DNA of 64,000 nt from Microcoleus sp. bin38.metabat.b11b12b14.051 (GTDB taxonomy: Bacteria; Cyanobacteriota; Cyanobacteriia; Cyanobacteriales; Microcoleaceae): contig NZ_JAAFKD010000015.1 of the NCBI RefSeq assembly GCF_013299165.1, positions 62,001 to 126,000 of the forward strand, in the 5' to 3' direction. The position numbers and the translations under genes are program-made. The notes beneath the pieces are model-generated. The model made no database searches, was not told where the DNA came from, and saw only the letters and a program-made list of their open reading frames with translations. Shown one piece after another: positions 6,185-60,466 of this stretch. Numbering within the stretch: position 1 is the first letter of the stretch; the number at the start of each line of letters is the position of its first letter.

Positions 6185-6261
6185 GAAATTGTAAATTGTA
6201 AATTGTAAATTGTAAATTGTAAATTGTAAATTGTAAATTGTAAATTGTAAATTGTAAATTG
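6185..6261. repeat. Heptanucleotide STRR (ATTGTAA)n
   Basis: About ten perfect head-to-tail copies of the 7-bp unit ATTGTAA. Short tandemly repeated repetitive sequences with 7-bp units are known from filamentous cyanobacteria. Confidence 0.95.
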
Positions 6262-21052: not shown

Positions 21053-21108
21053 GCTCGTAGCTGAAAATAGCTGAAAAATATCTGAAAGGGATCTTGAATT
21101 TTCTCAGG

Positions 21109-21857
21109 CTGCGGACTAAAGTCCACACTACGAACTGCAATAAATAAGGTTTGTAGTACGGACTTGAGTCCGCTCTGTGGCTGCGGACTAAAGTCCACAC
21201 TACGAACTGCAATAAATCAGGTTCGTAGTGCGGACTTGAGTCCGCTCTGTGGCTGCGGACTAAAGTCCACACTACGAACTGCAATAAATCAGGTTCGTAG
21301 TGCGGACTTGAGTCCGCTCTGTTGCTGCGGACTAAAGTCCACACTACGAACTGCAATAAATAAGGTTTGTAGTACGGACTTGAGTCCGCTCTGTTGCTGC
21401 GGACTAAAGTTCGCACTACGAACTGCAATAAATAAGGTTTGTAGTACGGACTTGAGTCCGCTCTGTGGCTGCGGACTAAAGTTCGCACTACGAACTGCAA
21501 TAAATAAGGTTTGTAGTACGGACTTGAGTCCGCTCTGTGGCTGCGGACTAAAGTCCACACTACGAACTGCAATAAATAAGGTTTGTAGTACGGACTTGAG
21601 TCCGCTCTGTGGCTGCGGACTAAAGTTCGCACTACGAACTGCAATAAATAAGGTTTGTAGTACGGACTTGAGTCCGCTCTGTGGCTGCGGAGTAAAGTTC
21701 GCACTACGAACTGCAATAAATAAGGTTTGTAGTACGGACTTGAGTCCGCTCCGTGGCTGCGGAGTAAAGTTCGCACTACGAACTGCAATAAATAAGGTTT
21801 GTAGTACGGACTTGAGTCCGCTCCGTGGCTGCGGAGTAAAGTTCGCACTACGAACTG
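21109..21857. repeat. 72-bp tandem hairpin array
   Basis: About 10.4 head-to-tail copies of a 72-bp unit; GCTGCGGACTAAAGT recurs every 72 bp. Each unit has arms GCGGACTAAAGTCCACACTAC and GTAGTACGGACTTGAGTCCGC around a central AACTGCAATAAATAAGGTT, so each can form a long imperfect hairpin. Copies differ by single substitutions (CACACT/CGCACT, AATAAG/AATCAG, GGACTAAAG/GGAGTAAAG), with the last copies most alike. Because 72 is a multiple of 3, several frames on both strands stay open across the array; these 24-residue-repeat translations are not accepted as genes. The same hairpin family occurs singly at 33211 and 40144. Confidence 0.95.
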
Positions 21858-21913: not shown

Positions 21914-24001
21914 TTAACTATTTCCTGCTGGTATGCGGACAGTGAAAACAGACCCTTTTCCCTCCTGGCTTTCTACCAAAATCTCGCCGCCCATCATCTG
22001 ACAGTAATGGCGGCTGATTGTCAGCCCCAATCCAGTGCCGCCGTACTGGCGCGTCGCCGAACAATCAGCCTGGGCGAAGGCTTCAAACAATTTGTGCTGC
22101 TGTTCCTCAGACATTCCAATACCGCTATCTTGAACTCGAAAGCAAATCCAATCCGATGCTGTCACATTAGCAATCGGACAAGCAATCGAACTCGATTTTG
22201 TGCAACCTCCAGCCCGGGAATTTTCAACTAAACCAGATAGCTTAGCCTCAGCATAGAATTCTCCGGTTCCCGGAATGCGGCTGACGCTGATTTTGACGCT
22301 ACCTTTTTTGGTAAACTTCGCAGCATTGTTCAGCAGGTGTTGCAACACTTTCCGCATTTTCCGGAAATCTGCGTGCATTGTCCCGACATTGCGATCGCAC
22401 TCTATTTCTAAAACATTGCCATTTTTTTCTATACATACTTTCTCCGCCATCCCTACACTATCGACTAGGGATGCGATCTCAAACTCTTCGATGTTGAGTT
22501 TCATTCCCCCGGTTTGAATTTTCGACAAATCGAGGATATCGTTAACCAAAGATAGCAGGTGCGTGCCTGCATTCTGAATCTTGTCTAAGTCGGGAACAAA
22601 ATCCTTGCAGCCGGAATCCCTAGCATCTTCTAAAAGTAGTTGACTGTAGCCGATAATTGCGTTTAAAGGCGTCCGCAACTCGTGGCTCATATTTGCTAGA
22701 AACTGGCTTTTAGCAGTGCTGGCTGCTAAAGCTTCTTCTTTTGCTTGTTCTAATTCTTTGGTATGTTCGGAAACTCGCTCGATCAGGTGATTGAGAGACA
22801 CTGCTAGCGAGCCGATTTCATCTTGTGCGGTGACTGGTGCTCGCAAGTCAAAATTTGACTCGGCGGCTACTTGTTCGGCTACCTGAGTGACGCTGACGAC
22901 TGGTTTGGCGATCGCCCGACTGGTGCGGTAAGCCACCATTCCCGCCACGGCTACCGACAGCAGCATACTGATCGTAATTATCGCCTTTTCGATGCCTTGG
23001 GCATCCTCCATCACTACGCCACCTTGTCGCTCTTGATGCTGGGCAATATCGAGGATTTTGCTCAATTCCTCAAGATGGCGATCGAGCACTTTTGCACCTT
23101 CTCCGCTTTCTATCGCCAACAATTTTCGGGCTGACTCTATCTCCCGAGGCGACATTTGTGACGGCTCGATTTGCTGTAAAGTTAAAGAGAGATTACCCGC
23201 ATAGGATTCTAACTCTTCGGTGCAATTTTGGAGTAAAGCTTTGAAAACTTTCGGCTTAGCTGCCAGCCAAGCGGGTTGGCTGTCGGCAAACTCTTCTAGG
23301 CGTGAATGCAGGCTTTTTGCCTTGACAATACTATTGAAAAACTGCGCTTTTTGCTGATTCAATAAAGCATAATTGTCTACAAAAGAATCTAGCTGCGAAC
23401 CCTGCAACTGTGCAGCTAGGGCAGCATCTTTAAAATTGCCGAGCAATTGCGCTTGTATGTGAGCGTCATTGAGTTGTTTTAATCCTTCTCCTTGGTGGCA
23501 GTCAGCAATCACCAGTCCGCTGAAGGAGCCAATAAAACCGATTCCTATTGCCAGAAAATACCCCCCACCAATTTTTTGATGGAGCGGCAAACCGCCAATT
23601 TTTTTTGGCAGTATTTTGCCGAGCTTGAAGGATGTTTTTTCGGCAATATTTTGGAAAAATGATGGCTTTGATTTTGTTGCTAAAGAAGCCAACTGTTCGG
23701 AAATAAAGAGCTGCATCAGTTTACCTAAACTGCTATTTTTGGGGTTAACTTTTCGACTTTCCACAGGTTTGTCTTGGTGGTTAAATTGTTCTGGCTCGTG
23801 ATTTGCTTCGCCCTTTATTTCCCAAGATGCAACCGATACACTTGCTTGGTTTCCTGTTGTTTTTAGCAAGTTAATTTTTGACATATGCAACCGCTGTATT
23901 TTGTTAAAATTTACCACGCTCTTAAGTTCTCCAAACGGAAAATCTTGTCTGGTTTGCAGCAGACACCTGCGAAAAACCATCTTTGACTCTTGTGGAGCCA
24001 T
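21914..24001 (-). CDS. Membrane sensor histidine kinase with HAMP
   Basis: 695 residues. A cytoplasmic N-terminal region of about 145 residues comes before helix 1 ([20 protein letters not shown]). Then a periplasmic all-helical region of about 170 residues and helix 2 ([18 protein letters not shown]). HAMP follows (about 365-420, [16 protein letters not shown]). The kinase core is [19 protein letters not shown] (phospho-His) with [31 protein letters not shown] and [18 protein letters not shown]. There is no receiver domain, unlike its neighbours. The sensor part looks like a four-helix-bundle type and gives no ligand clue. The first 39 residues are basic and weakly supported; an ATG at 23884 is an alternative start. 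The partner regulator is not in the window. Confidence 0.9.
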
Positions 24002-24977: not shown

Positions 24978-26861
24978 CTACCCGTGCGTAACTCCTAAAT
25001 TCGATAACTTACCGCCCCTACCCAAAGCTTCATCAGCCAATTCGACCATCCAGCGGTTCGGCCTGGCTTGTGGTCTGGCGGCGAGTACCAAGGCCCAAGC
25101 TTCGCTCTCAAGGCCACGGCCAGTCAGTACAGCACATACAGTCAAAGCCGCAGCCGCAGAACGGCTGATGCCGCTTTGGCAGCAGACGAGCAAATTGCCA
25201 GGGCGCGCTGAGATTTTGAGGGCGAAGTCAATAATTTCAAGTACGTCATCAAGTGCAGGCAAGACGCGATCCGGGTCGTCTACGGGGGTTTCTAGGTCGT
25301 TAAACGATTGTCGCAGTCGGTTGGGGACTTTGTGAAAAATTTTGGGTTCGGGCGCGCCGGGAGTGCCGATCGAGATCAAGTATTGGAGATTGGGCCCCGC
25401 AGCGCGATCGATAATATATTCGCTGGCTTCGGCTTCCGAAGCAATCAGGATGTGCGGCAGTTTTGCCTCCGATAAATCCGCAGCAGCTTCACCATCAAAA
25501 TAAACTGTTTTTACCTCACCGCTGCGATCGGGCAAGTATTGGGCGGCCAGGGCGCGAACGTCAGCAACTTCGCGGTTTAAAGCTGCTTCCAGAGCCAAAA
25601 CAGCAGCGGGAGACCCAATTTGACCGAGGGATTTAACAGCCTTCTGGCGCACTCCAGGGGTATCGTCTCCCAGCAGTCGCACCAAACCTGCTACGGCCTC
25701 CTCTGTGCCAATTTGCCCCAAAGCAGCAGCCACTCTCCACCGCACGTAGGATTCGCTGTCGCCGCGCGCGATCGCCAGTCCGGCCGCCACCATTTGTTGC
25801 AAGTTATCATCTCCGGCTGTATTGATGTTCCCCAAAGCCACCGCCGCCCGGCCGCGCACGAAAATATCTCGATCCGAGAGCGATCGCATTACCGCCACTG
25901 CGGCCACCTCGCTGCTGATTTCCCCCAAGGCAGAAACTGCACTGCCGCGCACATCTGAGTCGTCATGGTTGAGGGCTTGCAGCAGCCCGGAGACAGCGGT
26001 TTCCGTGCCGATTTGTCCCAATGCTTCCGCCGCCCTCAAAGAAACGGCATAGGAGTCGCGATCCTGGAGCAATTCTATTAGTCGCGGTACTGCTTCGATC
26101 GCGCCAATTTTGCCCAAAGCCGCCGCCGCCCTAGCGCGGACGAGCTGATTTTCATCTCTGAGGGCGTCGATCAGCCTGGAAACAACTGCATCGGAGCCAA
26201 TTTTTCCGCAGTTGACCGCCGCCCGCCAGCGCACCTCCGAGTCTTGATGTTTGAGGGCTTTGAGCAGTGCGGCGACAGATGTTTTCGGGTTAATTTTGCC
26301 CAAAGCCCAAACGGCCCAAGCGCGTACCGCGCCGGACTTGTGGTTCAGGGCTTTCACCAGCGCCCAAGCTGCTGGTTTGGTGTCAATTTCTCCCAGAGCC
26401 CAAGCAGCCCAAGCTTGCACTTGGGAATCTTCCGATTCGAGCGATCGAGCTAAGGCAATTACTGCTGTTGGAGAGCCAATTTTACCGATCGCCCGAATGC
26501 AATGAACGCGCACCGCACTGTTTTTGTGGCTCAATGCTTTAACCAGCATCGGAATTGCCATATCCGAACAAGTTAGCGCCAGCAGTTGAATTTTGAGCAG
26601 GGGAGAAATTGTGATTTTTGCGATTAATTTTAGTGCTGCTTTTTGAAATTCTGGCTTGAGCTTTCCTGCTAGTTTCGAGCCGAGTTTTAAATTTACTTTG
26701 AGCGACAGTTTTATTGCCCGCAAAGCCAGACTTTGCTCTTCAACTTGTGGCAATATTGTCGCCAAGGCGTGCATCCCTTGTTTTTGTTTCAGATACTTTT
26801 GGTGAAATTGATCGTCGCTGAGCTCTGATAGCTCTTGGATGAGGGTTGCTGCTGAGTTCAT
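24978..26861 (-). CDS. HEAT-repeat protein fused to a tyrosine phosphatase-like domain
   Basis: 627 residues. Residues about 100-450 are some eleven HEAT/PBS-lyase-type repeats of about 31 residues (e.g. VRVHCIRAIGKIGSPTAVIA, VRARAAAALGKIGAIEAVPR), a binding scaffold. Residues about 465-627 form a dual-specificity phosphatase-like domain. A conserved Asp region (FNDLETPVDD) precedes the P-loop LLVCCQSGISRSAAAALTV, in which Cys561 and Arg567 fit the C-x5-R signature. Normally His precedes the nucleophile (HC-x5-R); here it is Cys560. The fusion suggests a phosphatase targeted to a partner by the HEAT solenoid. Activity is plausible but not certain because of the His-to-Cys change. Substrate unknown. 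The gene stands alone on the minus strand. Confidence 0.85.
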   Translation of the reverse strand: MNSAATLIQELSELSDDQFHQKYLKQKQGMHALATILPQVEEQSLALRAIKLSLKVNLKLGSKLAGKLKPEFQKAALKLIAKITISPLLKIQLLALTCSDMAIPMLVKALSHKNSAVRVHCIRAIGKIGSPTAVIALARSLESEDSQVQAWAAWALGEIDTKPAAWALVKALNHKSGAVRAWAVWALGKINPKTSVAALLKALKHQDSEVRWRAAVNCGKIGSDAVVSRLIDALRDENQLVRARAAAALGKIGAIEAVPRLIELLQDRDSYAVSLRAAEALGQIGTETAVSGLLQALNHDDSDVRGSAVSALGEISSEVAAVAVMRSLSDRDIFVRGRAAVALGNINTAGDDNLQQMVAAGLAIARGDSESYVRWRVAAALGQIGTEEAVAGLVRLLGDDTPGVRQKAVKSLGQIGSPAAVLALEAALNREVADVRALAAQYLPDRSGEVKTVYFDGEAAADLSEAKLPHILIASEAEASEYIIDRAAGPNLQYLISIGTPGAPEPKIFHKVPNRLRQSFNDLETPVDDPDRVLPALDDVLEIIDFALKISARPGNLLVCCQSGISRSAAAALTVCAVLTGRGLESEAWALVLAARPQARPNRWMVELADEALGRGGKLSNLGVTHG

Positions 26862-27501: not shown

Positions 27502-28698
27502 TCAGCGGTAGGGCCCGCGTTTCAAAGCCTCAGCCAAAGCATTACCGTTATCTCGCAAACCTTCGTAAAAAAACAACACTTCTCCTGGAATGCCGCTCTG
27601 GCGGTTGCAAGCAATTACTTGCAACAACAGTTCCGGATTCATGCTATAATTGCTGCCTCGATTCGCCAACAAAATACCGGGCGACACGCAGCGCAGTTGC
27701 TCGCCGCTGAGTTGTTCTCCAACCAGTCGATCGACCAATTGTTTGTAACCGTTAAAATCGCGGCGGTAAAACTGCGGGTGAAGCATATCGACCAACTTTT
27801 TGTCAACCCAAGCTGGAGAATCTTGCAAATATTCCAGCAGTCCCCATTCATAAGGACTCGGCGACAGCGACAGCAACAAATCAGGATTAATCGCCTTCAA
27901 TTCTCGGTACAAGCGAGCCACAAACTCAGTAATTATATCAGCGCGCCAGTGCAGCCAATGTCGCTCCTTCGGATGCTGCGGCGGTTCTCTCCCGCACTCT
28001 TGGCGGTAGCGTGCAACCGTTTTTTCGTCATAACCGCCTTCACTGGGAAGCGCAATGCGATCGTCTCCTTGAACGCCGCTTACCGGATAATTCCTCGCAA
28101 CTTCCAGCATCAACCCCAGCAAAAAATCTTGCACTTCCACGTCGAGAGAATTCATCCATTCAAACTTATTTTTTGTAAGTAAATTGCCGTTAAAATCCCG
28201 CGCCGCCCATTCCGGCTTCTTCGCCAGCAAATGACCGCCCTTGAGATTGTAAGAACTCACAAATCCGTATTCAAACCAAGGAATAACTTTTAAACCAACT
28301 CTATTAGCTTCTACAGTTAACTCACCCAAAGGGTCGCGCCCTTGATAGCGCGCGTCAATTTCACACCCAAATTGTTCGCGCATAATTTGAGAAGGATAAG
28401 CAGTAAAACCCCGGTTCCACACAACAGGAAATACAGTATTAAATCCCGTATCTGCCAGAAAGTCCATTGCCTCAGCAATCCGCTGTTTTGAGGTGAGAAC
28501 TTGGCAGTCGGTGCTGGGTATCCAAACACCGCGAATTCCACATTCTGGCGCCAACGAACTCGGCTGCAAACTGGGATTTAGCGCAGTTTTTGTTTCTGCA
28601 AATCGCTGTTTGAATTGCCAACCAAATCTGCTAATTGCTGACTTAACATCTAGAAAAAAAGGCATTTGTTTGATTTCAATTGTAAGCTGTACCAGCAT
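27502..28698 (-). CDS. Glycosyl hydrolase-like 10 (GHL10) family protein
   Basis: 398 residues with a TIM-barrel fold of the GHL10 (formerly DUF187) family. Conserved parts are IRGVWIPSTDCQVL, GFNTVFPVVWNRGFTAYPS, GLKVIPWFEYGF, KKPEWAARDFNG, WMNSLDVEVQDF, and VSGVQGDDRIALPSEGGYD. The family is assumed to hydrolyse glycosidic bonds of cell-wall or capsular polymers; activity for this branch is not established, so substrate is left open. No signal peptide is evident, although cyanobacterial homologues are variably secreted. ATG at 28665 (MPFFLDVKSAIS) is an alternative start. A palindrome at 28701-28767 lies immediately upstream. Confidence 0.85.
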   Translation of the reverse strand: MLVQLTIEIKQMPFFLDVKSAISRFGWQFKQRFAETKTALNPSLQPSSLAPECGIRGVWIPSTDCQVLTSKQRIAEAMDFLADTGFNTVFPVVWNRGFTAYPSQIMREQFGCEIDARYQGRDPLGELTVEANRVGLKVIPWFEYGFVSSYNLKGGHLLAKKPEWAARDFNGNLLTKNKFEWMNSLDVEVQDFLLGLMLEVARNYPVSGVQGDDRIALPSEGGYDEKTVARYRQECGREPPQHPKERHWLHWRADIITEFVARLYRELKAINPDLLLSLSPSPYEWGLLEYLQDSPAWVDKKLVDMLHPQFYRRDFNGYKQLVDRLVGEQLSGEQLRCVSPGILLANRGSNYSMNPELLLQVIACNRQSGIPGEVLFFYEGLRDNGNALAEALKRGPYR

Positions 28699-34198: not shown

Positions 34199-37096
34199 TT
34201 ATAAGACCGAAGTAGCAAATCGGTTCAAGGCGATCGAACCACCACCAGCAATAGAATTGGGGTCAGTGCCGGTACCGGGCAGCACTTTGGATGAATCCCA
34301 CAAATTATCAGTCACAATTGAGTTGCTGAACAAACCAATACCGGAGTTGCCGCCTGACTTATTGTCATTAATCATGGAGTTATAGGCACCTGTCGGGCTA
34401 GCCGTCATCATCTGGTTGACAGAGTTAGTGATAAAATCGCTTACCAGATTAAGTGTTGACTGCGCCACACCATTAGACGGGCTAGAAGCCTGCTGTGACT
34501 TACCACCGTTGGTGAGAATATCGTTTGCTGGTGAGGGTGCAGCATCGCTCAAACTGAGACTGCTTTGCATTCTGAGCGCAGTAGTGCCTGTAGGGCTAGT
34601 GAAGCTTGCTGGGCTGGCGGTCAACGGAGCAACGGGCACCAGAATGGTGTCATTGTCCACGATCGTCAAAGTAGCTGTACTCGGAGTCCCGATCGAGGCA
34701 TTGCCTGTCGCGCTACCCAAACTTAAATTGACAGTTTCGTTAGGCTCCACCAAATTATCGTCGAAAATGGGAACGAAGATCGTCTTGGGTGTAGTGTCGC
34801 CGGAGGCAAAACTCACAGGGATGGGAGTATTGACGAAATCAAGACCCCCTGTAGCAGTACCATCTGCCAAATTCACGATCGCTGAGACTGCGCCAGTGCT
34901 GGCACCCGTGCGAGTGACTGTCACGGCTGTAACAGGCGTCCCATTTTCGTTGACGCTGAAGGCAGCAGCACTAAATTGCAGGCTGCTGTCATTGTCTATG
35001 ATGGTCAAAGTCGCTGTACTCTGAGTCCCAATCGAGGCATTGCCTGTCGCGCTACCCAAGCTCAAATTGATAGTTTCGCTAGGCTCTACCAAAGTGTCGT
35101 TGACGATCGGAACGGTGATAACTTTGGGTGTAGTGTCGCCGGAGGCAAAACTCACAGGAATGGGAGTATTGGTGTAATCTGCCGGGGCTGTAGCAGTACC
35201 ATCTGCCAAATTGACGATCGCTGAGACTGGGCCAGTGCTGGCGCCCGTGCGAGTGACTGTCACGGCTGCAACAGGCGTCCCATCTTCGTTGACGCTGAAG
35301 GTAGGAGAACTAAATTGCAAGCTGCTGTCATTGTCCAGGATGCTCAAAGTGGCTGTACTCGGAGTCCCAATCGTGGCACCACCTGTCGGGCTAGCTAAAG
35401 TTAAGTTGACAGTTTCAGTAGGCTCCACCAAAGTATCGTTGATAATCGGAACGACGATCGTCTTGGGTGTAGTGTCGCCGGAGGCAAAACTCACAGGGAT
35501 CGGAGTATTGGTGTAATCAAGACCCCCTGTAGCAGTACCATCTGTCAAGTTCACGGTGGCTGAGACTGCGCCAGTGCTGACACCGGCGCGAGTGACTGTC
35601 ACGGCTGCAACAGGCGTCCCATCTTCGTTGACGCTGAAGGTAGGAGCACTAAATTGCAGGCTGGTGTCATTGTCCAGGATGGTCAAAGTGGCTGTACTCT
35701 GAGTCCCGATCGCGGCATTGCCTATCGGGCTACCTAAAGTTAACTTAACAGTTTCGGGAGACTCTACCAAAGTATCGTTGACGATCGGAACTGTGATGAC
35801 TTTGGGTGTAGTGTCGCCGGAGGCAAAACTCACAGGGATGGGAGTATTGCTGTAGTCTGCCGGGGCTGTAGCAGTTCCATCTGCCAAGCTGACGGTGGCT
35901 GAGACTGCGCCAGTGCTGGCGCCCGTGCGAGTGACTGTCACCGCTGCCACAGGCGTCCCATCTTCGTTGACGCTGAAGGTAGGAGCACTAAATTGCAGGC
36001 TGCTGTCATTGTCCAGGATGTTCAAAGTCGCCGTTTTTTGGGTTCCCAGGGTGACACGGCTGCTGCCGGTGGGGTTGGTCAAGCTTAAGTTAACCGTTTC
36101 GGTAGGCTCGACCAAAGTATCGTTGACAATGGGAATGACGATCGTCTTGGGTGCGGTGTCTCCTGAGGCAAAATTCACAGGGATAGGAGTATTGCTGTAA
36201 TCTCCGGGGGCTGTCGCAGTTCCATTAGTCAGGTTTACGGTAGCTGAGGCGGTGCCGGCGCTGCTGCCGGTGCGAGTGACTGTCACGGCTGCCACAGGCG
36301 TCCCATCTTCGTTGACGCTGAAGGTAGGAGCACTAAATTGCAGGCTAACCGGATCTTCTGTCCCTTGATATTCAATGTTCCGCACCAGATAGTCGGAACT
36401 ATCGTCTTTAAAGGGGGTGGCGGTGTAGGCAGCGGTGGGGCTGTCGTAGGGTTTGCCTGAGAACCGCAGTTCGTCAAAAGTAGCGCCGCTTAGAGGTTTT
36501 GCTTCTACTTTGAATTTGAAACTGCCATCGGTGCGATCGCCAATGAAAGTCACTCCATTAGAAGACGCGGTAATCGGTTTTGCAGCGACGGGAGCGTTGA
36601 GCCGAGTGATCGTAAAATTGCTGCTGGATACCGCAGCTCCATTATTAAAGATTTGCAGCAAGCCAACTTCATTGCCTTGATCGCCCACTCCTAGGCTGGT
36701 TTTGGGACTCAATGCGCTGAGGTCGATCGTGGCGCTAGTGATGTCTTGGTTATCTGCCCATTTCACCTTCAGTGCCTGAGATTGATTGGTGTTGGGGTTA
36801 TAGTTAATTTCCGCTCTAATTTTATTGGGGTCAGTAAACCAACCATCATAAGATGATGCGACGCCAATACCAGGGCTACTACCGTAGCTCAACCAGCTTT
36901 TAGGGTTTTCATTGGTTGGTAAGGTAAGGTTGGCGATCGCAGTAGGGTTAAGATAGTCAGTTTCCACGCCGTCAAAAGCTATCCCAGACAGCTTTATGCC
37001 TTGATTCTGGGCAGCAGTAGGCCATTTTGTTATTAGTTCGTTGACGCTGGTAAAATTATTGGGTTGACCCAAAGAACCATTGAGGGAAGTAGGCAT
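34199..37096 (-). CDS. Large Calx-beta repeat protein, probably secreted or surface
   Basis: 965 residues. Residues about 1-245 are a unique N-terminal domain (start MPTSLNGSLGQPNNFTSV). Five Calx-beta repeats of about 113 residues follow (about 250-360, 364-472, 476-586, 590-700, 704-815). Each starts SLQFSAPTFSVNEDGTPVAA or a close variant and ends near TLTILDNDS. Calx-beta domains bind calcium and are common in adhesins and matrix proteins. The C-terminal 150 residues are low-complexity, rich in Ser/Asn/Gly. No N-terminal signal peptide was seen, which is also seen in type I-secreted proteins, but no RTX nonamers are present. The repeats are about 340 bp each and very alike in DNA, hence likely to recombine. 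Function beyond adhesion/matrix is inference. Confidence 0.85.
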   Translation of the reverse strand: MPTSLNGSLGQPNNFTSVNELITKWPTAAQNQGIKLSGIAFDGVETDYLNPTAIANLTLPTNENPKSWLSYGSSPGIGVASSYDGWFTDPNKIRAEINYNPNTNQSQALKVKWADNQDITSATIDLSALSPKTSLGVGDQGNEVGLLQIFNNGAAVSSSNFTITRLNAPVAAKPITASSNGVTFIGDRTDGSFKFKVEAKPLSGATFDELRFSGKPYDSPTAAYTATPFKDDSSDYLVRNIEYQGTEDPVSLQFSAPTFSVNEDGTPVAAVTVTRTGSSAGTASATVNLTNGTATAPGDYSNTPIPVNFASGDTAPKTIVIPIVNDTLVEPTETVNLSLTNPTGSSRVTLGTQKTATLNILDNDSSLQFSAPTFSVNEDGTPVAAVTVTRTGASTGAVSATVSLADGTATAPADYSNTPIPVSFASGDTTPKVITVPIVNDTLVESPETVKLTLGSPIGNAAIGTQSTATLTILDNDTSLQFSAPTFSVNEDGTPVAAVTVTRAGVSTGAVSATVNLTDGTATGGLDYTNTPIPVSFASGDTTPKTIVVPIINDTLVEPTETVNLTLASPTGGATIGTPSTATLSILDNDSSLQFSSPTFSVNEDGTPVAAVTVTRTGASTGPVSAIVNLADGTATAPADYTNTPIPVSFASGDTTPKVITVPIVNDTLVEPSETINLSLGSATGNASIGTQSTATLTIIDNDSSLQFSAAAFSVNENGTPVTAVTVTRTGASTGAVSAIVNLADGTATGGLDFVNTPIPVSFASGDTTPKTIFVPIFDDNLVEPNETVNLSLGSATGNASIGTPSTATLTIVDNDTILVPVAPLTASPASFTSPTGTTALRMQSSLSLSDAAPSPANDILTNGGKSQQASSPSNGVAQSTLNLVSDFITNSVNQMMTASPTGAYNSMINDNKSGGNSGIGLFSNSIVTDNLWDSSKVLPGTGTDPNSIAGGGSIALNRFATSVL

Positions 37097-49130: not shown

Positions 49131-49876
49131 GTAGGGTGCGTCAGCTACCTTTATTTTATCGTTAATTCACAGACTCCAAGCTGACGCACCCTACGACTAC
49201 GACGGCAAATCCAACTGTAGGGTGCGTCAGCTATAGTTATTTCATCTAGGATTTAAAAGCTCCAAGCTGAGGCACCTACGACGGCAAATCCAACTGTAGG
49301 GTGCGTCAGCTATAGTTATTTCATCTAGGATTTAAAAGCTCCAATCTGACGCACCCTACGACGGCAAATCCAACTGTAGGGTGCGTCAGCTATAGTTATT
49401 TCATCTAGGATTTAAAAGCTCCAATCTGACGCACCCTACGACGGCAAATCCAACTGTAGGGTGCGTCAGCTATAGTTATTTCATCTACAATTAAAAAGCT
49501 CCAATCTGACGCACCCTACGACGGCAAATCCAACTGTAGGGTGCGTCAGCTATAGTTATTTCATCTACAATTGAAAAGCTCCAAGCTGACGCACCCTACG
49601 ACGGCAAATCCAACTGTAGGGTGCGTCAGCTATAGTTATTTCATCTACAATTAAAAAGCTCCAATCTGACGCACCCTACGACGGCAAATCCAACTGTAGG
49701 GTGCGTCAGCTATAGTTATTTCATCTACAATTAAAAAGCTCCAATCTGACGCACCCTACGACGGCAAATCCAACTGTAGGGTGCGTCAGCTATAGTTATT
49801 TCATCTACGATTTAAAAGCTCCAAGCTGAGGCACCTACGACGGCAAATCCAACTGTAGGGTGCGTCAGCTATAGTT
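49131..49876. repeat. 80-bp tandem hairpin array, left part
   Basis: About nine units of about 80 bp; GTAGGGTGCGTCAGCTATAG recurs with a period of 78-80 bp. Each unit has arms GTAGGGTGCGTCAGCT and AGCTGACGCACCCTAC (or AATCTGACGCACCCTAC) around TATTTCATCTACGATTTAAA, and CGACGGCAAATCCAACT as linker. Some copies have lost bases (GAGGCACCTACGA). It is cut at 49876/49877 by the IS and continues after it at 51533. Confidence 0.95.
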
Positions 49877-51532
49877 AGGGCTTGCTGAAAAAGCCTAAAA
49901 CCCTTACAGCAAGAGACGTTGGCTCGTTTTAATCCTCAAAAAGTGCAAGCAATGCAGCTAAAATGGGTCAAAACCCCTGCACACCATCACTTTCGTAATG
50001 TACCGAAAAGTTGACCCAACACCACAGCCGCCATCCAACTTTGAATTTCCCTTCCAGGGGAAATTGTCATCAAATAATCGTTGGGTAATCATGGCAAAAT
50101 TAATTCCGTGGTCAGAATTTGAAACCGAATATGCTCAAAATTTTACAGTGTCAACCGGAGCTCCGGCGAAATCGTTTCGGATGGCGCTGGGAGCATTAAT
50201 TATTAAAGAACGGTTGGGAACTAGCGACGCAGAAACAGTAGAACAAATAAGAGAAAACCCATACCTGCAATACTTTATAGGTCTGACATCTTATAGTGAT
50301 GATTCACCATTTGACTCATCAATGTTTGTTCATTTTAGACAAAGAATAGGTGTGAACCTAGTTAATAAAATCAACGAAAAAATGGTCAAAGACCAGACCG
50401 AAATGCCAGCAGAGTCAACGGAAAACAAGTCATCAGAAACAAGTCAACCCAAAAACCAAGGCAAATTAATATTAGATGCAACAGTAGCACCAGCCGACAT
50501 CAAATATCCCACAGACTTAGGGCTATTAAATCAAGCAAGAGAACATACCGAAAAAATTATAGACGCTCTGCATAAGAAAAATCAGTCACCTGTAAAAAAA
50601 AACCAAGAACCTATCGTAACCGAGCCAGAAAAGAATACTTAACAATAGCCAAAAACCGGAAGCCATTACGGAAAGAACGAAAACAAGCAATTAAGAAACA
50701 ACTTCAATACATCTACAGAAATTTGGCTCATATTGAAAAAATGGGTCAGCTAGAGTTACTAAGTAAATCTCATTATAAAATGCTGTTAGTAGCCACAGAA
50801 GTTTACCGCCAACAGTTATGGATGTATGAAAATAAAAAACAGAGTATTCCCGATAGAATAGTAAGTTTAAAACAACCACATATTCGCCCCATCGTCAGAG
50901 GGAAAGCCGGGAAATCCGTTGAGTTGGGGGCGAAACTATCAGCAAGTTGTCGTAACGGCTATGTGTTTTTAGACCGAATTAGTTGGGATAATTTTAATGA
51001 ATCTTTAGACTTACAAGCACAAGTAGAAGAATTTAAAAGATTCACGGGATTCTACCCAGAATCAATTCATGTATATCGGATATATAGAACGCGAGAAAAT
51101 CGAGCATGGTGCAAAGAAAGAGGTATCAGAATGAGTGGTGTTCCCCTAGGAAGACGACCCAAGAATATTAATAAGTCAAAAAAAAAACAAGCTCAAGATG
51201 ACGAGAGAATTCGTAACTTAATAGAAGGAAAATTTGGAGAAGCCAAAAGAAGATTCAGCCTCGCTAGAGTCATGGCTAAACTTGATAATACATCTGAAAC
51301 AGGCATCGCCATAACTTTTTTGGTAATGAATCTTTCTGCCCTGCTGCGGCAGGCTTTTTGGCTTTTTTTCGGTTTATTTCATAACAACAACCTTTTCGCA
51401 TATTTTCGGCTTTTAACAATCAGGAAAAGCTATATTTCGCCCAAACAATATGAGCAAAATTTATCAGGTCAAGGTAATCGCAAATTCACTCATCTTTGTA
51501 AATGCCGTTTTCTGACTTTTTCAGCAAGCCCT
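49877..51532 (+). mobile_element. Insertion sequence (IS5/IS1182-like) inserted in the 80-bp array
   Basis: 1656 bp with inverted ends AGGGCTTGCTGAAAAAG and CTTTTTCAGCAAGCCCT. It is flanked by AGTT on each side (ctatAGTT|IS|AGTTatttc); uninterrupted units read TATAGTTATTTC, so AGTT is the duplicated target. It encodes a DDE transposase in two frames. The related MITE at 24607-24795 has the same outer 13 bp and target. Insertion within a tandem repeat unit gives a clear before/after comparison. Confidence 0.95.
49998..50642 (+). CDS. IS transposase, first frame (N-terminal part)
   Basis: 214 codons: MYRKVDPTPQPPSNFEFPFQ ... WVIMAKLIPWSEFETEYAQ ... FRMALGALIIKERLG ... FDSSMFVHFRQRIG, the N-terminal DNA-binding region of an IS5/IS1182-type transposase. 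The first catalytic Asp is in LILDATVAPADIKYPTD. Continuation in the family after KK is KPRTYR...; here nine A residues (50594-50602) precede the frame change and this frame ends 40 bp later with non-family residues (TEPEKNT). Translation of the full protein needs a -1 shift at A AAA AAA, a classic slippery site, or the copy has lost one A. Confidence 0.85.
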   Translation: MYRKVDPTPQPPSNFEFPFQGKLSSNNRWVIMAKLIPWSEFETEYAQNFTVSTGAPAKSFRMALGALIIKERLGTSDAETVEQIRENPYLQYFIGLTSYSDDSPFDSSMFVHFRQRIGVNLVNKINEKMVKDQTEMPAESTENKSSETSQPKNQGKLILDATVAPADIKYPTDLGLLNQAREHTEKIIDALHKKNQSPVKKNQEPIVTEPEKNT

Positions 51533-51568
51533 AGTTATTTCATCTACGATTTAAAAGCTCCAATCTGA
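50594..51568 (+). CDS. IS transposase, second frame (C-terminal part)
   Basis: This -1 frame continues KPRTYRNRARKEYLTIAKN... through YVFLDRISWDNFNESLDL and FTGFYPESIHVYRIYRTRENR to IRNLIEGKFGEAKRRFSLARV, where the catalytic Glu sits. The position expected to hold the second catalytic Asp (usually VDKIYRTRENR in relatives) reads VYRIYRTRENR, i.e. Asp to Tyr, so this copy may be inactive. The frame reads through the right IS end and stops 36 bp beyond it in the repeat array. From the slippery site it is 324 codons. Confidence 0.8.
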   Translation, partial: KKKPRTYRNRARKEYLTIAKNRKPLRKERKQAIKKQLQYIYRNLAHIEKMGQLELLSKSHYKMLLVATEVYRQQLWMYENKKQSIPDRIVSLKQPHIRPIVRGKAGKSVELGAKLSASCRNGYVFLDRISWDNFNESLDLQAQVEEFKRFTGFYPESIHVYRIYRTRENRAWCKERGIRMSGVPLGRRPKNINKSKKKQAQDDERIRNLIEGKFGEAKRRFSLARVMAKLDNTSETGIAITFLVMNLSALLRQAFWLFFGLFHNNNLFAYFRLLTIRKSYISPKQYEQNLSGQGNRKFTHLCKCRFLTFSASPSYFIYDLKAPI

Positions 51569-51905
51569 CGCACCCTACGACGGCAAATCCAACTGTAGGG
51601 TGCGTCAGCTATAGTTATTTCATCTACGATTTAAAAGCTCCAAGCTGAGGCACCTACGACGGCAAATCCAACTGTAGGGTGCGTCAGCTATAGTTATTTC
51701 ATCTACGATTTAAAAGCTCCAAGCTGAGGCACCTACGACGGCAAATCCAACTGTAGGGTGCGTCAGCTATAGTTATTTCATCTACGATTTAAAAGCTCCA
51801 AGCTGAGGCACCTACGACGGCAAATCCAACTGTAGGGTGCGTCAGCTATAGTTATTTCATCTACGATTTAAAAGCTCCAAGCTGACGCACCCTACGACTA
51901 CGACA
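51533..51905. repeat. 80-bp tandem hairpin array, right part
   Basis: About 4.6 further units of the same array, closing with a CTACGACTACGAC linker. Several units have the shortened GAGGCACCTACGA variant. A single TGCGGACTGAAGTCCTCACTACAAACC arm of the other hairpin family follows at about 51921-51947. Confidence 0.9.
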
Positions 51906-55252: not shown

Positions 55253-58200
55253 ATGAAAAACTTACAAATAGTATTCGTAGATTCAGCGGTTGAAGATTGG
55301 CAAAGTCTGGCTGCCGGTGTGAAACCGGGGATAGAGGTGATTTTAGTCGATCGGGCGCGAGACGGCATCGAACAAATTGCCGAAGCGCTGCAAAGTCGCA
55401 AAGGTATAGAAAGCGTTCACATTATTTCTCACGGGGAACCGGGAAGTTTGCAGCTAGGGAAAACTAGCCTTAATTCCGACAATTTAGAAACCTATCGCGA
55501 CTGTTTGAAACGGTGGTTTTCGTCGTCTGTCAATTCAATTCAAAATCGATGGGAAATTCTGCTATACGGATGTAACGTAGCGGCGGGCGAAAAAGGAGAA
55601 GCTTTTGTACAAAAGCTGAGCAAGTTAACAAAAGCTAATATTGCTGCTTCTGCTGATATTACCGGGAGTGCCCAAAAAGGCGGAAATTGGTTACTTGAAT
55701 ACGCTACTGGAGTGATTGAGGCGGGATTGGCGATCGAGCCGGAGGTAATGGCAAGTTACTCGCACGCTTTGGCTACGTTTGTGGTTACTAATACCAATGA
55801 TGCTGGGGCGGGTTCGCTACGAGATGCGATTACTCAAGCAAATGCTGCGGCTGCACCACCGCATAATATTAACTTCAACATTCCCGGTGCAGGCGTACAG
55901 ACGATCGCGCCACTGTCGATCTTACCAAACATTAACGTTCGTACAATCATCAACGGCACTACCCAACCGGGATTCGCCGGCACCCCGCTGATCGAAATCA
56001 ATGGAGCGGGTGCAGGTGCTGTCAGCGGTTTTCGAGTCTTGGCCGGTGGCGGTGGCAGCACCTTGCGGGGATTGATAATTAACCGCTTCGGCAACACTGG
56101 CATCTCCCTCGAAAGCGACGGCAACACCGTAGCGGGTAACTACATCGGTACAAATGCCACAGGTACCGCAGCTTTGCCCAATGCCTTATTTGGCGTCGCC
56201 GTTCAGAATGGTGGCAGCATTAATACTATTGGGGGGATTGCACCGGGCGATCGCAACGTGATTTCCGGCAATGGTGCTGATGGCATCATCATCGTTGGCA
56301 GTCCTGCGGGAAGCAACCGAGTGCTGGGAAACTACGTCGGCACGAACGCCGCAGGCACCGCTGCCTTACCCAACGCCAGCGGAGTCACGATCAATAGCGT
56401 ACTGAACAACACTGTTACCGGAAATGTGATTTCCGGCAACAACAATATCGGTATTGCCATTCTCAATCAGGGTTCCACGAACAACCTTGTGACAGGCAAC
56501 TTCATCGGCACTAATTTTGATGGCACCACCGCTGTCCCTAATACTAATGTTGGCGTAGTCATTGGGGGAGGTGCAAGCAACAATACCATTGGTGGAACGC
56601 TCCCAGCGACTCGAAACATTATTTCCGGCAACAGCAACGGTAACGGTGTCGTTCTTACTGGCGCCGCCACTGTCGGCAACTCCTTGTTCGGCAACTTCAT
56701 CGGCGTTGCTGTCGATGGTACGACTGCGCTGCCCAATGTTACCGGGGTATTGATTCCTGATGGTGCAAGCAATAATGTGATCGGCGGTACATTAATAGGT
56801 CAAGGAAATACGATCGCGAGCAACCTCGGTTCGGGAGTAAATATTATCGCTGGCACCGGCAACCGCATCCAAAACAACTCGATCTTTGCCAACGCCGGCA
56901 TAGGCATCGATCTCGGCAACAACGGCATCACCGCCAACGATGCAGGCGATCCCGACATCGGAGCAAACCTCCTCCAAAACTTCCCCGTACTCACCACCGC
57001 CAACGTCGGCGCCAGCAACGTCACCGTCGCGGGAACATTCAACAGCATTCCCAGCGCCAATTACACCCTGCAATTTTTCGCGAACACCCCCCCCGGTACC
57101 CAAGGTCAAAACTTAATCGGCTCTGCCACAGTAACGACTGATGCCGCCGGCAACGCCACTTTCAATCAAATTTTCCCCGTAGCAGTGGCTCCCGGTCAAT
57201 TAATCACTGCCACAGCAATTGACGCAGCCGGCAACACCTCTGAATTTTCCGCACAGCCTGTTCCCGTTGTAGGGCTCAGAACAATCACCGGGATTAAATT
57301 CAACGACCTTGACGGCAACGGCACTCAAACAGCCGGAGAACTTGGTGTCCCGGGAGTAACCATTTTCCTCGACACCAACAACAACACCATCCTCGATGCT
57401 GGCGAAACTTCCGTCATCACGGGTACTTCTCCCGATGGCAGTTTCACTTTCCCCAACTTGTCCCCTGGCACTTACAATATTCGCGAAATTGTACCCCCAG
57501 GCAGTCGCCCAACAACTTCCAACCCAGTTACAGCCACGCTGGCAGCAGGTGTAACTGCTCCTGCTATAGTGAATTTCGGCAACCAAGCGATACCCGTTGT
57601 AGGGCTCAGAACAATCACCGGGATTAAATTCAACGACATCGACGGCAACGGCACTCAAACAGCCGGAGAACTTGGTGTCCCGGGAGTAACCATTTTCCTC
57701 GACACCAACAACAACACCATCCTCGATGCTGGCGAAACTTCCGTCATCACGGGTACTTCTCCCGATGGCAGTTTCACTTTCCCCAACTTGTCCCCTGGCA
57801 CTTACAATATTCGCGAAATTGTACCCCCAGGCAGTCGCCCAACAACTTCCAACCCAGTTACAGCCACGCTGGCAGCAGGTGTAACTGCTCCTGCTATAGT
57901 GAATTTCGGCAACCAAGCGATACCCGTTGTAGGGCTCAGAACAATCACCGGGATTAAATTCAACGACATCGACGGCAACGGCACTCAAACAGCCGGAGAA
58001 CTTGGTGTCCCGGGAGTAACCATTTTCCTCGACACCAACAACAACACCATCCTCGATGCTGGCGAAACTTCCGTCATCACGGGTACTTCTCCCGATGGCA
58101 GTTTCACTTTCCCCAACTTGTCCCCTGGCACTTACAATATTCGCGAAATTGTACCCCCAGGCAGTCGCCCAACAACTTCCAACCCAGTTACAGCCACGCT

Positions 58201-60466
58201 GGCAGCAGGTGTAACTGCTCCTGCTATAGTCAATTTCGGCAACCAAGCGATACCCCCCACTCTCAGCCTCATTACTGGTAACAAATTTAACGACATTGAC
58301 GGCAACGGCATTCCAGGAGCCGGAGAATTTGGTGTCCCTGGAGTAACGATTTTCCTCGATACCAACAACGACGGCATTCTCAACGCGGGTGAAACTTCTG
58401 TCACTACGGGTACTTCTCCCGATGGCGCTTTCGCTTTCCCGCTAGTGCCAGGTGGCACTTACAATGTTCGGGAAGTTGTGCCACCTGGCAGTCGCCCAAC
58501 CACTCCTAACCCAGCTATAGTAACGATCCCAGCAGGTCGAACTACTCTTGCTACAGTCAATTTTGGCAACCAAACGATACCTGTTCCGACTCCGACTCCA
58601 ACTCCGACTCCCGTTACTACTCCGACTCCCGCTCCGACTCCCGCTCCTGCTCCGACTCCTGTTACCACTCCTACTCCCGTCCAACAAAGCAGCATCAGCG
58701 GTATTAAATTCAACGATGACAACGGCAACGGTACTCAGGATGCGGGGGAAACTGGTGTTTCGGGAGTGCTAGTTTTCCTTGATGCTAACGGGAACAACTC
58801 TTTAGATTCGGGCGAAATTACTGTTACCACTGACTCTTCTGGTAATTACAGTTTCACCAACCTCAATGCAGGCACTTACAATGTGCGGGAAGTGCAGCGG
58901 ACTGGTTGGACGCAAACTACTACGAATCCGGCACCGATTAATCTCCGCAGTGGCGAAAGTCGTAGTGGAATTAACTTCGGCAATTTCCAAAATATTAGCA
59001 TTTCCGGCAGCAAGTTTAATGACCTCAATAACAATGGGGTTTTGGATGCTCAAGAACCGCTATTGCCGAACTGGCAAGTCTTTCTTGATGCTAACGGTGA
59101 CGACAGTTTAGGTGCTGGAGAAGTTAATACTTCAACTGATAGCTTGGGTGGCTATAGTTTCGCTAATTTAGGCCCAGGAACTTATCGAGTTCGGGAAGTT
59201 AATCAACCTGGTTGGACTCGAACTACTGCCAATCCCGCTGATATTGTTGCTGTCAGCAGTGGCACTAATACCAGCAATATTAACTTTGGGAATTTTTTAG
59301 GGCAAGCACCAACACCAACACCACCAACACCAACACCACCGCCAGCGGGAGAAGATGCTGACTGCATTTGTTCGCAAATTGTTTTACCCAGCCTTAGCAG
59401 TATTCGCGGCCCCGGTTCTGTGACGAATACCCGCAACGGTACTAACGGCAATGACATTATTCTCGGCACTAATAACAATGACGAAATCAACGGCTTTAAC
59501 GGCAATGATTTGTTGGTCGGGTTCCGGGGTAATGATAATATTTACGGGGGACTTAACAGCGATTTCCCCGTTGGCCCGAATGTAGATAAGGACACGCTAT
59601 TTGGCAATGAGGGCAATGATTACCTCAATGGGGTTGCTGGAAATGATTTAATCTTTGCCGGCAAGAATGACGATGTTGTTTACGGTGGCAAAGATGATGA
59701 CGTTATTTTTGGCGACCAGAATAGCGATACTTTAATTGGCGACCAGGGTAATGATACTATCTACGGGGGAACTCTTAACCCGTTCGACCCGGATTTCAAT
59801 GGCAACGATTTACTGTTCGGTTTGGCAGGAAATGATTTTCTCAGCGGTCAGGAAGGTCAAGATACGATCGCAGGCGGTGACGGTAATGATACTGTACGCG
59901 CTGGTAAGGGCAACGACGTAATTGTGGGCGAGTTGGGAAATGATTTGCTGTTTGGCGACCAGGGCAGCGATACTGTCTGCGGAGGCGACGGGGATGATAC
60001 TGTGTACGGGGATATTGGCAGCCGTCTTCCTGTCGGTTCTGCTGGCGGAAAAGACCAAATCTGCGGAGGTTCGGGCAATGATTTGCTGTTTGGCAATGAA
60101 GGTCAGGATACTGTTAACGGCGATGCTGGAAACGATACTATTTACGGCGGCAAGGATGAGGACAGTTTGCTGGGCGGTGCTGGCGATGATTGGTTGTTTG
60201 GAGATGAGGGGAATGATACTCTGATTGGAGGTACTGGGAACGATCGATTTATTTTAGGTCTTGACCTCGGCACCGAGACTATTTTAGACTTTCAAGATGG
60301 TCTGGATTCGATCAGCTTAATTGGCGGTCTGAATTTCTCACAACTGAGCATTGTGGCGGAAAATAGTTCTACTCTGATCCGAGTTACCAGTTCCGGTCAA
60401 CTTTTGGCAACTCTGGGCAATGTGCCGACGAGCCTGATTACGGCTACAGATTTTGCGGTTCTGTAG
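55253..60466 (+). CDS. Giant DUF4347 / beta-helix / SdrD-like / RTX protein
   Basis: 1737 residues from ATG 55253 (MKNLQIVFVDSAVEDW), with GGAAAGG just before; an upstream frame is not convincing. Order: DUF4347 (about 1-180, VHIISHGEPGSLQLG, EILLYGCNVAAGEKG); a right-handed beta-helix (about 190-560, repeated GTNATGTAALPN, NVISGNG); four SdrD/Cna-B-like domains, of which three of 110 residues are almost identical in DNA (57263, 57593, 57923); a Pro-Thr stalk (PTPTPTPVTTPTPAPTP); two more SdrD domains; a second Pro-rich linker; then RTX calcium nonamers (GGDGNDTV, GNDLLFGD, GGAGDDWLFG types) to about 1690. The C-terminal ILDFQDGLDSISL...TAT is the type I secretion tail. Likely a secreted calcium-binding surface or matrix protein; function inferred. 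Confidence 0.9.
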   Translation: MKNLQIVFVDSAVEDWQSLAAGVKPGIEVILVDRARDGIEQIAEALQSRKGIESVHIISHGEPGSLQLGKTSLNSDNLETYRDCLKRWFSSSVNSIQNRWEILLYGCNVAAGEKGEAFVQKLSKLTKANIAASADITGSAQKGGNWLLEYATGVIEAGLAIEPEVMASYSHALATFVVTNTNDAGAGSLRDAITQANAAAAPPHNINFNIPGAGVQTIAPLSILPNINVRTIINGTTQPGFAGTPLIEINGAGAGAVSGFRVLAGGGGSTLRGLIINRFGNTGISLESDGNTVAGNYIGTNATGTAALPNALFGVAVQNGGSINTIGGIAPGDRNVISGNGADGIIIVGSPAGSNRVLGNYVGTNAAGTAALPNASGVTINSVLNNTVTGNVISGNNNIGIAILNQGSTNNLVTGNFIGTNFDGTTAVPNTNVGVVIGGGASNNTIGGTLPATRNIISGNSNGNGVVLTGAATVGNSLFGNFIGVAVDGTTALPNVTGVLIPDGASNNVIGGTLIGQGNTIASNLGSGVNIIAGTGNRIQNNSIFANAGIGIDLGNNGITANDAGDPDIGANLLQNFPVLTTANVGASNVTVAGTFNSIPSANYTLQFFANTPPGTQGQNLIGSATVTTDAAGNATFNQIFPVAVAPGQLITATAIDAAGNTSEFSAQPVPVVGLRTITGIKFNDLDGNGTQTAGELGVPGVTIFLDTNNNTILDAGETSVITGTSPDGSFTFPNLSPGTYNIREIVPPGSRPTTSNPVTATLAAGVTAPAIVNFGNQAIPVVGLRTITGIKFNDIDGNGTQTAGELGVPGVTIFLDTNNNTILDAGETSVITGTSPDGSFTFPNLSPGTYNIREIVPPGSRPTTSNPVTATLAAGVTAPAIVNFGNQAIPVVGLRTITGIKFNDIDGNGTQTAGELGVPGVTIFLDTNNNTILDAGETSVITGTSPDGSFTFPNLSPGTYNIREIVPPGSRPTTSNPVTATLAAGVTAPAIVNFGNQAIPPTLSLITGNKFNDIDGNGIPGAGEFGVPGVTIFLDTNNDGILNAGETSVTTGTSPDGAFAFPLVPGGTYNVREVVPPGSRPTTPNPAIVTIPAGRTTLATVNFGNQTIPVPTPTPTPTPVTTPTPAPTPAPAPTPVTTPTPVQQSSISGIKFNDDNGNGTQDAGETGVSGVLVFLDANGNNSLDSGEITVTTDSSGNYSFTNLNAGTYNVREVQRTGWTQTTTNPAPINLRSGESRSGINFGNFQNISISGSKFNDLNNNGVLDAQEPLLPNWQVFLDANGDDSLGAGEVNTSTDSLGGYSFANLGPGTYRVREVNQPGWTRTTANPADIVAVSSGTNTSNINFGNFLGQAPTPTPPTPTPPPAGEDADCICSQIVLPSLSSIRGPGSVTNTRNGTNGNDIILGTNNNDEINGFNGNDLLVGFRGNDNIYGGLNSDFPVGPNVDKDTLFGNEGNDYLNGVAGNDLIFAGKNDDVVYGGKDDDVIFGDQNSDTLIGDQGNDTIYGGTLNPFDPDFNGNDLLFGLAGNDFLSGQEGQDTIAGGDGNDTVRAGKGNDVIVGELGNDLLFGDQGSDTVCGGDGDDTVYGDIGSRLPVGSAGGKDQICGGSGNDLLFGNEGQDTVNGDAGNDTIYGGKDEDSLLGGAGDDWLFGDEGNDTLIGGTGNDRFILGLDLGTETILDFQDGLDSISLIGGLNFSQLSIVAENSSTLIRVTSSGQLLATLGNVPTSLITATDFAVL

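Follow-up and report, generated by a model that had tools for sequence, protein, structure and literature searches.

A HEAT-repeat phosphatase-like fusion protein of Microcoleus and its probable drift toward a pseudophosphatase

The window, a stretch of 64,000 nucleotides of Microcoleus DNA, encodes a 627-amino-acid protein in which a HEAT-repeat solenoid is joined to a phosphatase-like (DSP) domain with the P-loop C560-C561-QSGIS-R567. The question raised by this locus is what such a domain does when a second cysteine takes the place of the conserved histidine ahead of the nucleophile: whether it acts as a phosphatase, whether its activity is controlled by a disulfide between the two cysteines, as the initial annotation suggested, or whether the fold has been kept for something other than turnover. 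The features of the locus, in window coordinates, are as follows.

24978..26861, minus strand: HEAT-DSP fusion protein, 627 aa, with an ATG start and full-length homologous ORFs in relatives
26571..26861, minus strand: N-terminal helical region, residues 1-97, from the model helices and a match to a NACHT-HEAT ORF of the same genome
25536..26564, minus strand: eleven HEAT/PBS-type repeats, residues 100-442 (Pfam HEAT_2 7e-69; model pLDDT mostly 80-95)
25464..25535, minus strand: linker, residues 443-466, of low confidence and differing among homologues
24978..25463, minus strand: DSP domain, residues 467-627, with the stop codon (Pfam DSPc, model, DUSP structures)
25296..25298, minus strand: Asp522, candidate general acid by its position directly after the strand preceding the D-loop; invariant
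25182..25184, minus strand: Cys560, at the conserved-His position by alignment
25179..25181, minus strand: Cys561, at the catalytic nucleophile position by alignment
25161..25163, minus strand: Arg567, P-loop arginine by alignment; Leu in one Microcoleus/Tychonema clade

The two-part architecture had been proposed from the letters of the sequence, and both Pfam matches and AlphaFold models agree with it. A Pfam scan of the full protein matched HEAT_2 (7e-69) and HEAT_PBS (6e-45) in the HEAT part, and the full-length model contains eleven helix pairs at residues 100-442, the "about eleven" repeats of the initial annotation, preceded by a helical region at residues 4-97. The DSPc match (residues 517-607, 2.5e-6) scores 27.8 bits where the cut-off is 33.5, whereas a homologous domain with an HC motif from another family of the order scores 44.5 bits, above this cut-off. 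When the DSP domain was modelled alone with 61 aligned sequences, phage relatives included, the anticipated phosphatase fold was predicted with a pLDDT of 94.3; in the full-length model, for which 12 close sequences were available, the same domain lies mostly below pLDDT 50. The model of the domain aligns with solved DUSPs at Z scores of 12-14.2 over about 135 residues, and the top matches (DUSP28, DUSP14, DUSP8 and STYX) are tied at 13.6-14.2. By these models the DSP fold of the C-terminal domain is confirmed.

The alignment places C560, C561 and R567 as they had first been read, with nucleophile and P-loop arginine present and Cys560 at the position of the histidine. The codons of both cysteines are TGC (25184..25179), and C576 is the only further cysteine of the domain. 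The likeness to DSPs (PF00782) covers the fold, the CxxxxxR P-loop with its nucleophile and arginine, and an invariant Asp in the region of the D-loop, whereas the window protein differs by having Cys for His, an eleven-repeat HEAT solenoid and about 20% identity; unlike DSPs, some Microcoleus members of the fusion family lack the arginine. Asp522 is invariant in the 61 aligned sequences and in 49 cyanobacterial rows, and as the invariant Asp was preferred as candidate acid over Asp529 of the DDPD motif, which an alignment had suggested. The solenoid repeats are of the same type as those of the PBS-lyase HEAT proteins NblB and CpcE/F; a phycobilisome role was considered and rejected, the scores being far short of the NCBIfam cut-offs (108.9 of 300 bits for NblB, 102.1 of 330 for CpcE).

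The fusion with its DSP domain is present in 24 of the 30 Microcoleus genomes and in 8 of the 10 from a second genus in the same family; in the other six and two genomes no gene was found, an absence rechecked with a profile. A profile search also recovered fusions of 458-630 aa in at least nine genomes from other families of the order, where single-domain relatives occur beside the fusions. Because the fusion and the CC pair recur across many genomes, a chance origin is excluded. Literature searches on HEAT-DSP fusions, vicinal disulfides in PTPs and cyanobacterial DSPs returned nothing on this protein.

The state of the motif was compared in 49 rows, 25 of them distinct Microcoleus sequences and 24 from outside. 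All 24 outside rows have His-Cys-Arg. Among the Microcoleus rows the His position is occupied by Cys (22), Ser (two) or Leu (one) and never by His, the nucleophile position by Cys in 24 and Ser in one, and the arginine position by Arg in 22 and Leu in three. Both cysteines are present in 22 of the 25, all three Arg-less rows among these. Of the Arg-to-Leu rows, one is from Microcoleus sp. LEGE 07076 and one from Tychonema sp. LEGE 07203; the third is a protein that has an identical copy in Tychonema sp. LEGE 06208. The Ser-Ser row, in which the nucleophile is lost, stems from one MAG of 74% completeness and should be read with caution. The two Ser-type MAGs (L043 and L044) also carry a ten-residue in-frame insertion, HFGYAQCDAT, directly before the P-loop; its core sequence is present in one copy per genome in both.

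When the motif columns were left out of tree building, the Microcoleus rows formed one clade (100/100). The His position changed three times on this tree, from His to Cys at the base of Microcoleus and then from Cys to Ser and from Cys to Leu, and the arginine changed to Leu once, the three Arg-to-Leu sequences forming one clade. Judged from this history, CC is ancestral to Microcoleus and derived from HC; having arisen once at the base and being clade-wide, it is not a one-off. The initial annotation had allowed that homologues with ordinary HC might reduce CC to an isolated case, and had asked whether the pair is conserved. Such homologues do exist, every outside row being HC, but CC is fixed across the Microcoleus clade; its conservation holds within that clade (22 of 25 rows) and not beyond it. 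Four motif changes fall in the Microcoleus tree versus none in an HC tree roughly four times as long, an excess for which equal rates give a crude p of about 0.001, or of 0.007 when the MAG is left out, both values being post hoc since the test was devised after the data had been seen. As far as sequence comparison can tell, what appeared to be the oddity of one protein is a clade-level loss of catalytic residues.

For the DSP domain, dN/dS was estimated at 0.16 in the HC genus, at 0.29 in Microcoleus with CC and at 0.21 (95% 0.12-0.34) in the Arg-less clade. The HEAT part shows an equal rise, from 0.16 to 0.29, and the relaxation is therefore not specific to the DSP domain. The value of 0.21 indicates that no pseudogene decay was set off by the loss of the arginine, and by this estimate the domain of the Arg-less clade is under purifying selection. 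Motif loss in a maintained gene, one of the marks of a pseudophosphatase, is found in the Microcoleus/Tychonema Arg-to-Leu clade; the window protein lacks the His only.

We consider it moderately probable that the Microcoleus DSP domain is a phosphatase fold with weak activity or none, which binds a phospho-ligand and is held near a partner by the HEAT solenoid. Outside Microcoleus the HEAT-DSP fusion has an intact phosphatase signature; the catalytic His gave way to Cys in the ancestor of Microcoleus, after which the domain would have drifted toward a pseudophosphatase. The fold, whether weak or inactive, has probably kept its ability to bind phosphorylated or anionic ligands. The solenoid would attach to a partner and keep the DSP domain beside it, and the protein would act through the binding or shielding of a phospho-site, not through turnover. 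The activity of the Microcoleus domain is probably reduced. The P-loop arginine is required for phosphate binding and catalysis, and a maintained sister clade that lacks it indicates a function without need for turnover. In DUSP3/VHR the change of the His before the nucleophile to Phe cuts kcat/KM 19-fold (PMC5679558), and the pseudophosphatase PTPRU, in which the Cys is kept, still binds the substrates of related phosphatases (PMC7320164). In DUSP28, which has Tyr at the His position, restoring the His did not raise activity (PMC5679558); as the VHR and DUSP28 results differ, the activity of the window protein is not predictable from CC alone. Several points weigh against the pseudophosphatase reading. 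The window protein retains the nucleophile, the arginine and a candidate acid, and activity may survive when only the His is lost; the forms without arginine or nucleophile come from species other than that of the window; the nucleophile loss depends on a single 74%-complete MAG; and the raised dN/dS of Microcoleus (0.29 versus 0.16) is estimated to be equal in the HEAT part.

The main rival is an active phosphatase, in which C561, R567 and D522 suffice for catalysis, Cys560 is tolerated as a small core residue and the HEAT solenoid recruits the substrate. With the nucleophile in 24 and the arginine in 22 of the 25 Microcoleus rows, an invariant D522, a domain under purifying selection and the precedent of DUSP28, where a non-His residue is tolerated at the same position (PMC5679558), this deserves attention, but the maintained clade without arginine and the confinement of further motif losses to Microcoleus make it doubtful. 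That the gene is simply decaying in Microcoleus, with a DSP domain that has no selected function, is the least likely of the explanations weighed. Its absence from six of 30 genomes, the motif losses and the insertion of ten residues ahead of the P-loop in two MAGs could be read in this way; however, full-length frames are open in nearly all other members, the DSP dN/dS of 0.2-0.3 is well below 1 with the Arg-less clade included, and the neighbours are alike across most Microcoleus.

A redox switch, in which a reversible disulfide between Cys560 and Cys561, or between Cys561 and another thiol, controls activity or binding, seems unlikely. It would accord with the 22 of 25 Microcoleus rows that have CC, all three Arg-less rows included, and with the disulfides of the catalytic Cys known in PTPs, among them the pseudophosphatase PTPRU (PMC7320164). 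These literature cases, however, pair the catalytic Cys with a sequence-distant backdoor Cys and not with the adjacent residue, as in the redox-sensitive PTPRU, where the Cys is kept (PMC7320164). Two lineages have Ser or Leu in place of Cys560, and because of these losses the switch is not favoured. Disulfides between adjacent cysteines are, moreover, strained, and the side chain of the His is normally directed away from the nucleophile, both of which count against it. The losses of Cys560, arginine and nucleophile are more in keeping with a relaxed constraint on catalysis than with a disulfide that has to form, and the redox control first proposed for the window protein, though possible, is now less likely. 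Slightly less likely again is a bacterial redox-sensing pseudophosphatase, in which a Cys-Cys thiol switch has replaced catalysis and alters partner binding by the DSP domain; if true, it would explain why CC is retained even in the Arg-less forms.

Among known proteins, DUSP28 has low activity and, like the window protein, a non-His residue (Tyr102) before the catalytic Cys; it differs in having Tyr where the window protein has Cys and in lacking a HEAT domain, and its low activity is put down mainly to other P-loop residues (PMC5679558). STYX, MK-STYX and PTPRU likewise maintain the phosphatase fold with altered catalytic residues, but these are animal proteins and other residues are changed. 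To our knowledge pseudophosphatases are known mainly from animals, and a literature search of limited coverage found no bacterial one. Here close bacterial relatives present HC, CC and forms without Cys560, arginine or (in one MAG) nucleophile on one HEAT scaffold, and natural orthologues thus offer a way to test how an enzyme becomes a binding protein.

Single-domain bacterial PTPs from rhizobial plasmids, cyanobacteria and phage contigs have no HEAT solenoid, and those examined have HC; most phage relatives were retrieved by an HC pattern, so their HC carries no evidential weight. The rhizobial plasmid proteins share 34-38% identity, and several are annotated as protein-tyrosine-phosphatase; the cyanobacterial ones have a C-terminal RPQAxPN motif in common with the fusion protein. 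The window's own genome encodes a separate single-domain DSP (L052, contig C9) with an ordinary HC motif (VVHCGGGIGRTG) that scores above the DSPc cut-off.

The solenoid of the mapped fusion family resembles one found in a NACHT-HEAT protein. In the same genome as the window protein, a 950-aa ORF is matched by residues 18-126 (E 1.6e-11) and has a NACHT domain (Pfam 2e-9) followed by HEAT repeats; similar matches to longer ORFs occur across the family, the 950-aa ORF being the one domain-checked case. The C-terminal half of this ORF, a cyanobacterial NACHT-HEAT (STAND-type) protein, resembles the N-terminal helices and HEAT repeats of the window protein, which by contrast ends in a DSP domain and gave no NACHT match in a full-length Pfam scan. 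On account of this match the solenoid may have a common origin with a STAND-type sensor, a relation of sequence that says nothing for a role in defence.

Two neighbours flank the gene.

27502..28698, minus strand: upstream neighbour, a GHL10 glycosyl-hydrolase-like protein (Pfam GHL10 8e-58; synteny in Microcoleus)
21914..24001, minus strand: downstream neighbour in most Microcoleus, a HAMP-HisKA-HATPase sensor histidine kinase (Pfam; synteny)

The gene order metK, GHL10, HEAT-DSP, histidine kinase is found in most Microcoleus; in one early-branching Microcoleus the kinase does not adjoin the HEAT-DSP gene. A conserved operon was rejected, the order being absent in the second genus and the intergenic gaps measuring several hundred bases or more. 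As the gene order varies and the gaps are long, the histidine kinase is not put forward as a partner. Between mnmG (gidA) and the kinase lies a 72-bp tandem repeat (21107-21857; 10.4 copies, 97% matches) that creates long spurious ORFs, and repeat peptides like those of this array adjoin L052. Elsewhere in the window there are two arrays of 80-bp repeats with nearly identical units (49197-49877 and 51532-51898) and two long-period arrays, probably repeat domains of large proteins (34648-36346, 339 bp x 5; 57263-58585, 330 bp x 4). Microsatellites of 7 bp, a period recurrent in the window, lie at 6186, 27014, 29610, 33943, 41676 and 61339.
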